Source: a virus. Taken from it: a stretch of DNA of 37,870 bases. Position 1 is the stretch's first letter. Every line of letters starts with the position of its first letter. A program made the translations under genes and the position numbers. This document shows, piece by piece, positions 112-30,865 of the stretch. The stretch is from the IMG/VR virus record IMGVR_UViG_3300043427_001029, positions 1 through 37,870 of that record; one strand, given 5' to 3'. A model generated the notes under the pieces. That model was not told the origin of the DNA. It did no database searches and saw only the letters and a program-made list of their open reading frames with translations.

Positions 112-119
112 GATAAATA
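112..119 (+). promoter_or_regulatory. T4-like late promoter motif GATAAATA
   Basis: GATAAATA matches seven of eight positions of the T4 late consensus TATAAATA. It lies just after the previous stop and abuts the hairpin at 119-135. In T4 this box covers -13 to -6, which would put the start near 125, at the tip of the hairpin. The same arrangement recurs at 8561 and 23829. The motif is short and also occurs by chance inside genes, so this is an inference from position. Confidence 0.5.
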
Positions 120-140
120 CCTCCATCATGGAGGTTTTTT
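119..140 (+). terminator. Hairpin plus T-tract; its 3' arm carries the next Shine-Dalgarno
   Basis: A perfect 7-bp stem (ACCTCCA, loop TCA, TGGAGGT) is followed by six Ts, the form of an intrinsic terminator. The 3' arm contains GGAGG (130-134) nine bases before the ATG at 144, so the same stem would hide the ribosome-binding site of the next gene in read-through mRNA. Confidence 0.75.
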
Positions 141-143
141 ATT

Positions 144-497
144 ATGAATCCAAGTTCAGCGAAAGCGAAAGGTCGCCGTCTGCAACAGTGGGTGAGAGAT
201 AAACTTATTGAGATGCTTGAAGTTCATCCAGAAGATATCGAATCCCGTAGCATGGGAGCGGGTGGTGAGGATCTCATAATGGCTCGTGCTGCTAGGTTAA
301 AGTTCCCTCACAGCATTGAATGTAAAAACGTGGAGAAGCTAAATATATGGGATGCTTATGAGCAAGCATCTGCCAACTCGGGTGACTATGAACCTCTCGT
401 TGTTATTAAAAAGAATGGAAAAAAACCGCTAGCAGTGGTTGACGCAGAGTACTTCATACGTTTATTCGGAGACAAAAATGACGCTAGACCTTCATAA
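144..497 (+). CDS. PD-(D/E)xK-type endonuclease, Holliday-resolvase-like, 117 aa
   Basis: A small basic protein with the core of a PD-(D/E)xK nuclease: GGED with Asp43, followed after a strand by IECKN (Glu59, Lys61), the usual metal-binding and catalytic pair. A helix with RRLQQWVRDKL precedes the core, as in resolvase-like nucleases. It probably cuts or trims branched DNA, or acts as a repair nuclease, in the infected cell. The start is the ATG placed nine bases after GGAGG in the hairpin upstream. Its last 20 bases overlap the start of the next gene. The fold family is fairly safe; the substrate is not known. Confidence 0.65.
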   Translation: MNPSSAKAKGRRLQQWVRDKLIEMLEVHPEDIESRSMGAGGEDLIMARAARLKFPHSIECKNVEKLNIWDAYEQASANSGDYEPLVVIKKNGKKPLAVVDAEYFIRLFGDKNDARPS

Positions 498-8560: not shown

Positions 8561-8586
8561 ATAAATAGGGGGGATAATCCCCCCTT
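8561..8586 (+). promoter_or_regulatory. Late motif ATAAATA directly followed by a 7-bp hairpin
   Basis: ATAAATA (8561-8567) is followed at once by GGGGGGA (8568-8574), loop TAA, TCCCCCC (8578-8584) and TT. The predicted late start (about 8573) falls inside the left arm. Read-through RNA would form the stem; a late transcript would not. Confidence 0.55.
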
Positions 8587-8591
8587 ACATT

Positions 8592-9104
8592 ATGAAAATT
8601 TTTAATAATGCAATAAGTGATAATTTACAGCAAGAATGTATACAAGAGATAAAACAAAATTCTCAAAAAAGAGTGTGGACATCTAGTAGTATTGGGTGGC
8701 CAGAAGTTGTTAGAAGTAATATTGTAGGTAGTTGTATATCATGTGATGTTAGTGCTGATTTATCAAAACAAATAGAACATCAGATAAAACAATACCTACC
8801 AGAACATCAGAATTTAATACTTCAATTTTATGTTTGGCAGTATAATTCTGGAATATCATTACATGACGATCATACATATAAATTTGGCGCAACTTTATAT
8901 TTAAATAATTCTTGGCATGTTAACTGGGGAGGCATTTTTTTGTGGTATGAAACTATGCAAGATCTGGAACATGGTAATTGTTTGGGATTGATACCCCAGG
9001 GAAAAACATTAGTAGTTAACGACGAAAGACAATTACATTTGGTTACTCCAGTATCTTCTTCTTCCCCTTCTTTTAGAATTACCATACAGATTTGGGGAGA
9101 ATGA
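8592..9104 (+). CDS. Fe(II)/2-oxoglutarate-dependent oxygenase, 170 aa
   Basis: The double-stranded beta-helix core is visible: ISLHDDHTY gives the HxD pair, GATLYLNN the following strand, then LIPQGKTLVVND and HLVTPVSS with the distal His, and SFRITIQIW with the Arg that binds 2-oxoglutarate. Such enzymes hydroxylate proteins or small molecules. The gene is AT-rich compared with its lysozyme neighbour and overlaps the next gene as ATGA. Substrate unknown. Confidence 0.75.
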   Translation: MKIFNNAISDNLQQECIQEIKQNSQKRVWTSSSIGWPEVVRSNIVGSCISCDVSADLSKQIEHQIKQYLPEHQNLILQFYVWQYNSGISLHDDHTYKFGATLYLNNSWHVNWGGIFLWYETMQDLEHGNCLGLIPQGKTLVVNDERQLHLVTPVSSSSPSFRITIQIWGE

Positions 9105-19377: not shown

Positions 19378-19564
19378 CATTAAAAGCGCCCTGGTGGAGT
19401 CAAATTTGACCCTATTATGCCCGTGATGGAGACACGTTAACAACCCTGGTCGGGAACCCCCTCGATGAGTTTCCAATTTCTCTAAAAAATTGGTGGTGCG
19501 GATGGGACTCTCTCCCGCCTGGTTTCTTGCCTCCAGTCAAAGGGCAAGTGGCGAGCCGAGCACG
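19378..19564 (+). other. Structured non-coding stretch before tRNA-Met promoter
   Basis: No ORF of note. Hairpins: the palindrome GTCAAATTTGAC (19399-19410); CGTG/CACG (19422-19436); CCAATTT/AAATTGG (19473-19493, seven-base loop); GGGA/TCCC (19504-19516); CTTGCC/GGCAAG (19526-19548). No T-tract terminator is seen. Could be a 3' leader-trailer of the halogenase operon or a separate RNA. Confidence 0.35.
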
Positions 19565-19607
19565 GGGGGATTGACAACCCCCACCCCTCTCATATATAAT
19601 AGAGGGG
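19565..19607 (+). promoter_or_regulatory. tRNA promoter with both boxes inside inverted repeats
   Basis: TTGACA (19571-19576), 18 bp, TATAAT (19595-19600). GGGGG (19565-19569) and CCCCC (19578-19582) flank the -35. CCCCTCT (19584-19590) and AGAGGGG (19601-19607) flank the -10 with a ten-base gap, as at 12883-12924. Confidence 0.8.
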
Positions 19608-19612
19608 TTGAA

Positions 19613-23529: not shown

Positions 23530-23703
23530 ATGATTTATAATACTGGTGACATGCTTGGGCAATTTGCCCTTGCTCTCACTGAACTGGTTGAAAGTGGTGC
23601 TTGGGATAGAGATGATCAACTTAAAGTCTGTGTTGCAGGCACCCTAAAAAAAGACAAATTTATTGTAATCCAAAACACTACTAAAAGAGGAGAAACAAAA
23701 TGA
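23530..23703 (+). CDS. Hypothetical protein, 57 aa
   Basis: Begins MIYNTGDMLGQFALALTELV and ends in a basic tail. AGGA lies six bases before the ATG at 23530. It overlaps the following hli start as ATGA. Its place inside the photosynthesis operon suggests a link, but no motif shows it. Confidence 0.6.
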   Translation: MIYNTGDMLGQFALALTELVESGAWDRDDQLKVCVAGTLKKDKFIVIQNTTKRGETK

Positions 23704-23819
23704 AATTCGGATGGACCCCTGAGGCTGAGATTCTTAACGCTCGTCTCGCAATGCTTGGTTTCGTAATCGCAGTCGGAACCTATGTCACAACTGGTCAGAT
23801 TGTCCCAGGCGTTTTTTGA
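23700..23819 (+). CDS. hli: Short high-light-inducible protein, 39 aa
   Basis: MKFGWTPEAEILNARLAMLG has the core E-x-x-N-x-R-x-A-M-x-G of HLIPs followed by a membrane helix and a short end (GQIVPGVF). It is the minimal form, below most length cut-offs. GAGGAGA precedes the ATG, which overlaps the upstream stop. Last gene of the operon, closed by a hairpin. Confidence 0.92.
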   Translation: MKFGWTPEAEILNARLAMLGFVIAVGTYVTTGQIVPGVF

Positions 23820-23828
23820 TTGGTATTA

Positions 23829-23861
23829 ATAAATAATCGGAGGGTATACCCCTCCTTTTTT
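23829..23861 (+). terminator. Operon terminator with late motif ATAAATA just ahead
   Basis: GGAGGG (23839-23844), loop TATAC, CCCTCC (23850-23855) and six Ts form a clear terminator for the hli operon. ATAAATA (23829-23835) lies three bases before it; the predicted late start (about 23841) falls in the left arm. The halogenase starts 12 bases after the T-tract with no Shine-Dalgarno. Confidence 0.8.
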
Positions 23862-23872
23862 ATTAATTTGAT

Positions 23873-25309
23873 ATGCATATTTGTATAATAGGATCGGGCG
23901 CTGCTGGGTGGCAGGCATGTAATTTATTTAAAAATAAATCATATGTGAAAAAAATAACCATAGTGGGATCTCCCCATATTCCTTCTATAGGTGTGGGTGA
24001 ATCCACAACTATAGATTTCTGCGAACTCCATGATAAAATAGGTGATGATCTATCAGATTTTATACGAGAGACTGATGCAGCAGTAAAGTATGGAGTCTAC
24101 TATAAGAATTGGTCAGAACGTAATTGGTTACATCATTTAAAATGCACTGATCATTTTAGAAAGTATGATATAAACATTCATGAATATGGTAAACGATTAG
24201 GAAGCAAAGGAAACGTTTACATTCATGATCTCATAGGCAAGTTTTTATTTCAAGCAACAACAAACAATCATATTCTAAACGGAATAGGAACTAAACCATC
24301 TCAGTTTTTAGAGTATCCTAACTCTTGGCACTTTGATGCTGGGAAGTATATAAAGTATTTAAAGAAACTTGCATTAAAAAATGACAACGTAGTGTTTGTT
24401 GAAGACACAATAGTTGATTGTGTATTTGATGGTGATGTTATACAAGAAATTATTTCTGAATCTGGTAGAAGAATCAAAGCAGACTACTACATCAATACTA
24501 GTGGTGCTACCGAGAAAACAAACAGAATTTTTAGACAAGAATATACTGATTTGTCTGATGTTCTATTGACAGATAAAGCACTATTTTATCCTTTGAAATA
24601 TGAAAATAAGAAAAAACAATTTCATCCATATACTATAGCTAAAACAATGAAATATGGGTGGCGTTGGATTACACCAACGTGGTCTCGTGTGGGAACTGGA
24701 TATGCTTTTAGTTCTAGGCATATCAGTATAGACCAAGCAGTAGATGAATTTGTCAAAGATATAGGTGATGAAACTATAGTGCCTAACGTGGTTGACTTCA
24801 AACCCAAATATAATAAAGTTACTTACAGAAAGAATAGTTGTTCTGCTGGTATGGCAAATGGATTCTTGGAACCATTAGATGCTCCTGGACTTGCATTAAC
24901 ATCTTACATATTATTTGGTCTGGAAGATATATTTGAACGAGGTAAATCTATAGTAGATTTGAATGATTATCTATCTGAGAGTTATAAATGGTGGGCATGT
25001 TTTATTCTTGCTCAATATAAAACTTGTTATAGAAATGATACTGACTTCTGGATAGATCATAAAAATGTTCACTATGATTTCTATCAAGGTATTGTTGATA
25101 ACTTAGGAACAGAATTGGATTCAACTGCTGGTGGATTAGCAAAAACTCCATGGATGGATATGATGATGTTTTATCACACCATGTCAGCAAAAAACCTCAA
25201 ATGGAATTCTGAGAAACCATTTGAGGTTTTGAGTCCTGCATCTAGAACAATTGACCACTATATGTGGATATCAAAATTTCATTCTGCTTGTGGTAGCGAT
25301 GCCTGGTAA
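23873..25309 (+). CDS. Flavin-dependent (tryptophan-type) halogenase, 478 aa
   Basis: A FAD site GSGAAG (8-13) is followed by SIGVGEST, AAVKYGVYYKNW (Lys72 at the catalytic Lys position), WRWITP (about 263-268, the WxWxIP signature kept almost intact) and FLEPLDAPG (about 330, matching the EPLES element). This copy keeps more of the diagnostic residues than the one at 16816. It should add halogen (Cl or Br, both plentiful in sea water) to an electron-rich ring, using FADH2. Substrate unknown. Its 3' end overlaps a convergent gene by 31 bases. Confidence 0.8.
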   Translation: MHICIIGSGAAGWQACNLFKNKSYVKKITIVGSPHIPSIGVGESTTIDFCELHDKIGDDLSDFIRETDAAVKYGVYYKNWSERNWLHHLKCTDHFRKYDINIHEYGKRLGSKGNVYIHDLIGKFLFQATTNNHILNGIGTKPSQFLEYPNSWHFDAGKYIKYLKKLALKNDNVVFVEDTIVDCVFDGDVIQEIISESGRRIKADYYINTSGATEKTNRIFRQEYTDLSDVLLTDKALFYPLKYENKKKQFHPYTIAKTMKYGWRWITPTWSRVGTGYAFSSRHISIDQAVDEFVKDIGDETIVPNVVDFKPKYNKVTYRKNSCSAGMANGFLEPLDAPGLALTSYILFGLEDIFERGKSIVDLNDYLSESYKWWACFILAQYKTCYRNDTDFWIDHKNVHYDFYQGIVDNLGTELDSTAGGLAKTPWMDMMMFYHTMSAKNLKWNSEKPFEVLSPASRTIDHYMWISKFHSACGSDAW

Positions 25310-29443: not shown

Positions 29444-29477
29444 TTGACAGGTACGGGATCCCGTGCTACTATAAATA
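29444..29477 (+). promoter_or_regulatory. psbA control region: sigma70 promoter overlapping a late promoter
   Basis: TTGACA (29444-29449), 17 bp, TACTAT (29467-29472). TATAAATA (29470-29477), an exact late consensus, overlaps the -10. The spacer holds the perfect 12-base palindrome ACGGGATCCCGT (29453-29464). Confidence 0.8.
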
Positions 29478-29480
29478 AAT

Positions 29481-29506
29481 GTTAAGGAACCGAAACATTC
29501 CTTAAC
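29481..29506 (+). other. 5'-UTR hairpin of psbA
   Basis: A perfect 9-bp stem GTTAAGGAA (29481-29489)/TTCCTTAAC (29498-29506) with an eight-base loop, 32 bases before the ATG. No T-tract. It starts near the predicted late start (about 29483) and could protect or regulate the mRNA. Other cyanophage psbA genes have conserved leader structures (PhotoRC motifs); I cannot tell if this is one. Confidence 0.65.
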
Positions 29507-29538
29507 AATTCATGTAAACTTAACGTTCTTTTAAAACT

Positions 29539-30621
29539 ATGACTGCTACTATCGCTCAACAGCGTAGTGGAAGTAACACTTGGGAACAATTCTGCGAGTG
29601 GGTAACTTCTACCGATAATCGTCTTTACGTCGGTTGGTTTGGAACTCTAATGATTCCTACCCTTCTTGCTGCTACTATTTGTTTCATTGTTGCTTTCATC
29701 GCTGCTCCTCCTGTCGATATCGACGGCATTCGTGAACCCGTTGCTGGTTCACTCATGTACGGAAACAACATCATCTCTGGTGCTGTTGTTCCTAGTTCCA
29801 ACGCCATCGGACTGCACTTCTATCCTATCTGGGAAGCTGCTTCACTCGATGAATGGCTATATAATGGTGGACCATTTCAACTGGTCGTCTTCCACTTTCT
29901 GATTGGTATCTATGCCTACATGGGTCGTGAATGGGAACTCTCTTACCGATTGGGTATGCGTCCTTGGATTTGTGTTGCCTACAGCGCACCCGTTGCTGCT
30001 GCTTCTGCAGTTTTCCTCGTGTATCCCTTTGGACAAGGTTCCTTCTCTGATGCCATGCCGCTCGGCATTAGTGGAACATTTAACTACATGCTTGTTTTTC
30101 AGGCGGAGCATAACATCCTCATGCACCCCTTCCATATGCTTGGGGTGGCTGGTGTATTTGGCGGTTCTCTTTTCTCTGCTATGCATGGATCTCTGGTCAC
30201 AAGTTCACTCGTTCGTGAGACTACTGAAAACGAATCTCAAAACTATGGATACAAGTTCGGACAAGAAGAAGAAACCTACAACATCGTTGCAGCACACGGA
30301 TACTTTGGACGACTCATCTTCCAATACGCTTCCTTTAACAACAGTCGTAGCCTACATTTCTTTTTGGCTGCTTGGCCTGTTGTTGGTATTTGGTTTACTG
30401 CTCTCGGAGTCAGCACAATGGCATTCAACTTGAATGGTTTCAACTTCAACCAGTCGATTCAAGATAGTCAAGGTCATGTGATTCCTACTTGGGCAGACAT
30501 CCTCAATCGTGGTGGTCTAGGCATGGAAGTAATGCATGAGCGTAACGCTCACAACTTCCCTCTTGACCTTGCCGCTGCTGATATGACTCCTGTTGCTCTC
30601 ACTGCACCTGCAATCGGTTGA
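29539..30621 (+). CDS. psbA: Photosystem II D1 protein, 360 aa
   Basis: Full-length D1, with the five membrane helices, [15 protein letters not shown] (His ligand of P680), the Tyr-Z helix and the QB region FIAFNNSR-type stretch ([14 protein letters not shown]). The C-terminal extension after LDLAA resembles the CtpA processing site. Glu131 (Glu130 in the usual numbering, this protein has one extra residue near its start) is the residue linked to the high-light form of D1. It replaces damaged host D1 to keep energy supply during infection. It is more GC-rich than phage genes around it. Confidence 0.99.
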
Positions 30622-30646
30622 CATACTAGGTAAAACCTGATACACT
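30618..30646 (+). promoter_or_regulatory. Sigma70-type promoter overlapping the psbA stop
   Basis: TTGACA (30618-30623) contains the psbA TGA stop; 17 bp on is TACACT (30641-30646). The spacer carries AGGT/ACCT (30628-30638). Predicted start near 30653, within the hairpin that ends psbA. Confidence 0.65.
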
Positions 30647-30647
30647 G

Positions 30648-30670
30648 GGAGGGCAATGCCCTCCTTTTTT
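30648..30670 (+). terminator. psbA terminator
   Basis: Perfect 7-bp stem GGAGGGC/GCCCTCC (30648-30654, 30658-30664), loop AAT, then six Ts. It ends psbA transcription, while a transcript from the promoter at 30618 would begin inside it. Confidence 0.9.
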
Positions 30671-30865
30671 ATGGAAACTTTCGAGCAGACCTGCTATAAA
30701 CCATATGATAGACATGACTATAAACTAATCTTCGCCAACAATACATCAAAAGTCTTTGATAATTATATGGATGTGCAGGCAACATGGTTCCAAACTCCCA
30801 ATCAATTCTTGAGTCACATAGAAGTATTGGATAAAAAGAAAAAAACTAATCCAAAAGGATTCTAA
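30671..30865 (+). CDS. Hypothetical small protein, 64 aa
   Basis: Starts METFEQTCYKPYDRHDYKLI, basic at the C-terminus (KKKKTNPKGF). The ATG follows the terminator T-tract directly; there is no Shine-Dalgarno. A longer frame from 30656 is possible but would start inside the hairpin. Aromatic strands suggest a small folded domain. Function unknown. Confidence 0.6.
   Translation: METFEQTCYKPYDRHDYKLIFANNTSKVFDNYMDVQATWFQTPNQFLSHIEVLDKKKKTNPKGF

Follow-up and report, generated by a model that had tools for sequence, protein, structure and literature searches.

Four gene boundaries of a T4-like cyanophage fragment carry a promoter that runs directly into a hairpin, an observation that is confirmed here, is not due to chance, and is more general than these four sites. 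The best overall explanation, which we consider likely to be correct, is that cyanomyoviruses punctuate their transcription with overlapping terminators and promoters. A -10 element, of either the host sigma70 type or the T4-type late form ATAAATA, would end 0-4 nt 5' of a GC-rich hairpin, so that the transcript would start within the left arm. RNA arriving from upstream would contain both arms and form the hairpin, which would terminate it where a U-tract follows; if the right arm is a Shine-Dalgarno sequence, as at site 1, RNA that reads through would also be poorly translated. RNA from the new promoter would neither terminate nor hide its ribosome site, because the left arm is wholly or partly missing from it. 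Geometry, enrichment, covariation, and gene context are the observed basis of this reading, and from them we infer start positions, termination, and the translation block.

The window, i.e., the whole stretch of 37,870 bases that by itself makes up the IMG/VR record analysed, was placed by similarity searches, tRNAs, and gene content (psbA, hli, tryptophan halogenase, 2OG oxygenases) as a fragment of a T4-like cyanophage of Synechococcus-type hosts. The preliminary description had reported late motifs at 112, 8561, and 23829 and a sigma70 promoter at 30618, each with a predicted start in or just past the left arm of the next hairpin. Promoter and hairpin were found at these coordinates in all four cases (Table 1). 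T4 late transcripts usually start about 6 nt past the motif and sigma70 transcripts about 7 nt past the -10; with this consensus spacing, each predicted start lies within the left arm.

Table 1. Promoters, hairpins, and adjoining genes at the four sites of the window
Feature	Position	Strand	Basis
Site 1 late promoter core GATAAATA; predicted start about 125	112..119	+	sequence
Site 1 hairpin ACCTCCA-TCA-TGGAGGT	119..135	+	folding, covariation
Site 1 Shine-Dalgarno GGAGG in right arm, 9 nt 5' of ATG	130..134	+	sequence
U-tract 3' of site 1 stem	135..140	+	sequence
RusA-like Holliday junction resolvase gene, ATG 144	144..497	+	PHROG 244, E 2.9e-22
Site 2 late promoter core ATAAATA; predicted start about 8573	8561..8567	+	sequence
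Site 2 hairpin GGGGGGA-TAA-TCCCCCC, without + strand U-tract	8568..8584	+	sequence, folding
2OG-Fe(II) oxygenase gene 3' of site 2, ATG 8592	8592..9104	+	Pfam PF13661, E 4e-6
High-light-inducible (hli) gene 5' of site 3	23700..23819	+	PHROG 178, E 1.4e-17
Site 3 late promoter core ATAAATA; predicted start about 23841	23829..23835	+	sequence
Site 3 predicted terminator hairpin GGAGGG-TATAC-CCCTCC (stem 23839-23855) and U-run	23839..23861	+	sequence, folding
Tryptophan halogenase gene 3' of site 3, ATG 23873	23873..25309	+	Pfam PF04820, E 3e-66
psbA (photosystem II D1) 5' of site 4; stop codon overlaps -35	29539..30621	+	Pfam PF00124, E 1e-88
Site 4 sigma70 promoter TTGACA-17-TACACT; predicted start about 30653	30618..30646	+	sequence
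Site 4 predicted terminator hairpin GGGAGGGC-AAT-GCCCTCCT (stem 30647-30665) and U-run	30647..30670	+	sequence, folding
Small DUF7441 gene, ATG 30671 directly 3' of site 4 U-run	30671..30865	+	Pfam PF24225, E 7e-25

Promoter-hairpin geometry and gene context

Taken singly, the motifs are unremarkable: ATAAATA by itself occurs in the window about as often as expected (13 occurrences vs 12.6) and sigma70-like sites are common there by chance, so that the case rests on the combination of promoter and hairpin. As a control, we scored ATAAATA against the 20 remaining orderings of its seven letters (five A, two T), in each case upstream of ORFs. Three of the seven ORF-proximal ATAAATA motifs in the window abut a hairpin, whereas in related contigs 2% of its A/T permutations do so (p = 3e-4). 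Across eight large related contigs, a hairpin directly follows 20 of 236 ATAAATA and 53 of 2661 permuted motifs, and a U-tract hairpin 15 of 236 and 25 of 2661, respectively. Among 933 distinct cyanophage terminator hairpins (predicted as such by a scan that accepts any T-rich tail), there is a sharp peak in which the -10 ends 0-4 nt 5' of the stem, with 32 strong sigma70 promoters and 44 late elements, while control 5-nt bins further upstream hold about 0-8 elements each.

Since psbA and the resolvase served as queries, the collection is centred on both, and 26 of the 32 sigma70 elements lie behind psbA or psbD. For these reasons the 32 and 44 elements shrink to 7 sigma70 and 9 late independent contexts once elements with a common upstream or downstream gene are joined; control bins contain on average about 1.1 and 1.9 contexts (Poisson p about 2e-4 each). 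A family count by downstream gene alone (22 + 10) was discarded, as it overstated independence relative to this joining (7 + 9). In a first count on a smaller set, ATAAATA was represented by 6 families vs 5 for the next permutation.

The ATAAATA-hairpin scan recovered only genes e and 49 from the T4 genome, both of them published cases (PMC3014915, PMC2988022). T-even phages had 0 sigma70 and 3 late abutting promoters among 284 terminators, distant T4-like phages had none among 80, and Syn9 had no abutting late motif (0/26). Host cyanobacterial DNA contained no genuine abutting promoter in 311 terminators, the single match being on a contig that looks like phage DNA. This contig (L464), filed under 'Euryarchaeota archaeon TMED129', has a cyanophage-like psbA gene along with a promoter-terminator element of phage type and is probably a misbinned phage contig.

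The abutting elements stand close to the genes behind them. The median distance from hairpin to ATG is 7-9 nt vs 36 nt in other terminators, and the ATG follows within 12 nt in 51 of 65 abutting elements as compared to 72 of 380 other terminators. An ORF lies behind 76% of the ATAAATA-abutting terminators, 37% of the rest, and 12% of those with plain A-tracts; because terminators of this last, bidirectional type seldom precede an ORF, the late motif is more than an A-tract. These proportions bear on the proposal that the elements are common terminators of the bidirectional type, in which an A-rich sequence on the upstream side resembles ATAAATA or a -10 box by chance, which would draw on the A/T-richness of the genomes and on the single-motif frequencies given above. 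It is at odds with the contrast in gene context between true A-tract and ATAAATA terminators, with the far rarer abutment of permuted motifs, and with the correctly spaced -35 that the sigma70 peak requires. The asymmetry in strand and context led us to reject the A-tract reading, and we regard a chance resemblance as quite improbable.

Gene order also invites comparison with PeSLs (promoter-early stem-loops), which papers citing the original work describe as a stem-loop terminator with an early promoter at shuffled gene boundaries of T4-type phages (PMC4503421, PMC5931544). As recombination joints of this kind, the elements would persist as homology patches between swapped genes, and gene control would be secondary. 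Several different genes do stand 5' of the site 1 element, elements linked to psbA or psbD are followed by many unrelated genes, and the arrangement of site 3 recurs in other phages as hli followed by a late-promoter terminator and then by a different gene. However, the spacing is preserved across stems of widely different sequence, a pattern that speaks for function more than for a homology patch. This is seen at psbA 3' ends, where 12 sigma70 and 4 late promoters abut among 54 distinct sequences (about 2.2 expected in all from spacer shuffling) and where spacing is constant between phages and promoter class and stem sequence vary. Furthermore, in T4 the terminator and the early promoter are separate, with the terminator first: in the clearest pair of that genome the terminator lies wholly upstream, its stem starting 64 nt before the end of the -10. 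An origin of the elements as recombination joints is thus unlikely in our estimation.

Predicted fate of read-through and new transcripts

Folding predicted free energies of -7.9, -14.2, -11.1, and -14.1 kcal/mol for read-through RNA at sites 1, 2, 3, and 4, vs 0, 0, -3.6, and 0 kcal/mol for the respective new RNA; at site 1, RNA begun anywhere at 124-126 had no predicted fold. The proposal that RNA begun at the new promoter escapes the stem is therefore supported by folding for sites 1, 2, and 4, where the predicted fold is lost, and falters at site 3, where the predicted start leaves a 4-bp hairpin and the new RNA may keep this weak structure. In the wider set, a truncated fold of -1 kcal/mol or lower was predicted for 24 of the 44 late elements and for 16 of the 32 sigma70 elements.

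The preliminary description had also envisaged one short module, common to all four sites, that stops the incoming RNA or hides a ribosome site. This uniformity was not borne out. A hidden ribosome site was found solely at site 1, with GGAGG in the right arm; the right arms of sites 2-4 (TCCCCCC, CCCTCC, and GCCCTCCT) contain no Shine-Dalgarno sequence. A GC-rich stem followed by a U-tract is present at sites 1, 3, and 4. On the + strand of site 2, the stem is followed by TTACATTA and no U-tract, which makes this site doubtful as a terminator; judged by its sequence it is probably not one, and we regard it as a hairpin-only form of unclear strength. An orthologue of site 2 (contig L052) has a different stem, GCGGGGA/TCCCCGC, and a T-rich tail. 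When orthologues of sites 2 and 3 were sought, one distant relative was retrieved for each site, in both cases without the element.

A start inside the hairpin is accordingly a well supported mechanism for site 1, by anatomy and T4 precedent, and a doubtful one for site 2. A start inside the terminator is plausible for sites 3 and 4, which would act as terminators alone and follow two photosynthesis genes, hli at site 3 and psbA at site 4.

Site 1 and the resolvase gene

AlphaFold models of the site 1 resolvase, from the single sequence or with 34 relatives, reached a pLDDT of about 50 and were too poor to use, and no PDB sequence matched the protein. Its assignment therefore rests on PHROG 244 and on database annotation, homologues being annotated likewise in S-PM2 and Sf-FR1. 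The late motif and hairpin are present in 61 of 81 homologous resolvase loci, an SD-like right arm in 43 of the 81, and several different genes are found upstream of the element. S-PM2 and Sf-FR1 contain the module, which in S-PM2 lies immediately 5' of the resolvase start at position 115,200 of NC_006820; Syn1, S-CAM1, and S-H9-2 encode the resolvase without it. In S-H9-2, the homology match sets in 69 bases 5' of the annotated gene start (NC_070960.1 96367-96630; L544:470-733) and in frame with it, so that the resolvase may be annotated too short.

In 24 aligned relatives of site 1, TAAATAC is invariant and the ATG invariant or nearly so. The stem covaries, being 93% paired with 11 two-sided changes vs 4.0 +/- 1.7 after shuffling, and the alignment tolerates U-G pairs. 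Near-perfect palindromes next to a predicted start could also act at the DNA level, as an operator or cruciform that regulates the promoter. Yet different genes have different stems, with compensatory changes and tolerance of U-G pairs, and most elements have a one-sided U-tract. We rejected this DNA-level reading on the strength of the stem covariation and consider it highly improbable.

Primase, nrdA, and nrdB lie 5' of the resolvase in relatives, a gene order that makes read-through of nucleotide-metabolism transcripts into this late-function nuclease plausible. Under the punctuation model, site 1 would combine both functions, termination and ribosome-site masking, and the resolvase would remain silent on the upstream transcripts. 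That the stem would block ribosomes on read-through RNA is argued by analogy, as T4 offers a direct precedent with the same layout.

Other promoter-hairpin arrangements

Cyanophages contain a second fusion of terminator and promoter, in which the sigma70 -35 TTGAC(A/T) lies in or at the terminator loop (GGGGG-TTGACA-CCCCC-TTTTTT...TATAAT). It was seen in 50 distinct terminators from about 12 contexts (L087:15777, L098:11111, L100:9472, and about 47 other loci). In the window, the promoter 5' of tRNA-Met (19560-19612) spans two hairpins: the loop of the first, GGGGG/CCCCC, contains the -35 TTGACA, and that of the second, CCCCTCT...AGAGGGG, the -10 TATAAT. In the psbA promoter region of the window (29444-29507), a sigma70 -10 TACTAT overlaps the late motif TATAAATA, the spacer holds the palindrome ACGGGATCCCGT, and directly 3' comes an AT-rich hairpin of 10 bp; similar hairpins stand upstream of psbA in contigs L082, L084, and L090. 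A third geometry has the late promoter directly 3' of the terminator U-tract (TTTTTTATAAATA; L069:3002, L115:5039, L107:6750, and others). It was found at 77 distinct terminators, 72 of them with an ORF close behind, and is common in T-even phages too.

Relation to known systems

Late promoters within ribosome-site hairpins have been described in T4 for genes e, soc, 49, and I-TevI (PMC3014915, PMC2988022), and synthesis of gene e from the long transcript is about 100-fold lower (PMC3014915). In these genes, as well as in segB and in mobE of Aeh1, the late promoter is in the left-arm region as at site 1; the longer upstream transcript masks the Shine-Dalgarno sequence and the late transcript leaves it free. 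Genes e and 49 share the site 1 layout ATAAATACC...GG...ATG. Gene 49 and the gene behind site 1 both encode Holliday-junction resolvases, endonuclease VII and a RusA-like enzyme, of unrelated families. The ribosome-site gating proposed for site 1 is this known T4 mechanism.

Gating could in principle be the whole explanation, with the hairpin timing translation as in T4 genes e and 49 and the U-tract being incidental. The GGAGG of site 1, the common plan of e and 49 (PMC3014915, PMC2988022), and the SD-like right arms of homologous resolvase loci would all fit. However, sites 2-4 and 32 of 32 sigma70 elements are without an SD-like right arm and nevertheless keep the geometry and mostly the U-tract, and gating alone is improbable in our view. 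Unlike the T4 genes with hidden ribosome sites, sites 3 and 4 have U-tract hairpins that mask no ribosome site, and site 4 has a sigma70 promoter. To the extent that PeSLs are described in the papers available to us, site 4 resembles them in uniting an early (sigma70) promoter and a terminator stem-loop in one intergenic element. Relative to the clearest T4 pair its order is reversed, as the -10 precedes the stem and the predicted start is inside it. An ordinary intrinsic terminator with a late promoter, frequent in T-even phages and cyanophages, also ends one transcript and starts the next, but the two do not overlap and the start comes after the U-tract, unlike at the sites described here. 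The form with the start inside the terminator, be the promoter early or late, appears to be a new variant; we found no description of it in the searchable literature, a body that leaves many subscription papers and the original PeSL papers outside its scope.

Implications

It is intriguing to extend the overlapping terminator-promoter punctuation to group-wide 'self-blinding terminators', with a host-type or phage late promoter fused to the left arm within roughly 30-60 bp, that would end every incoming transcript and remain unseen by their own. The same timing circuit would then act on the unrelated resolvases of T4 gene 49 and the cyanophage RusA-like gene, its control logic kept or re-evolved while the enzyme differs. 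We give this wider proposal about an even chance. If true, it would provide a testable case of one regulatory circuit guarding two different resolvases, as well as a small insulated promoter-terminator part. It would also supply a compact rule for reading the transcription units of viruses that are very abundant in marine and freshwater habitats, a rule that would also locate the boundary between phage psbA, psbD, or hli and the gene that follows.
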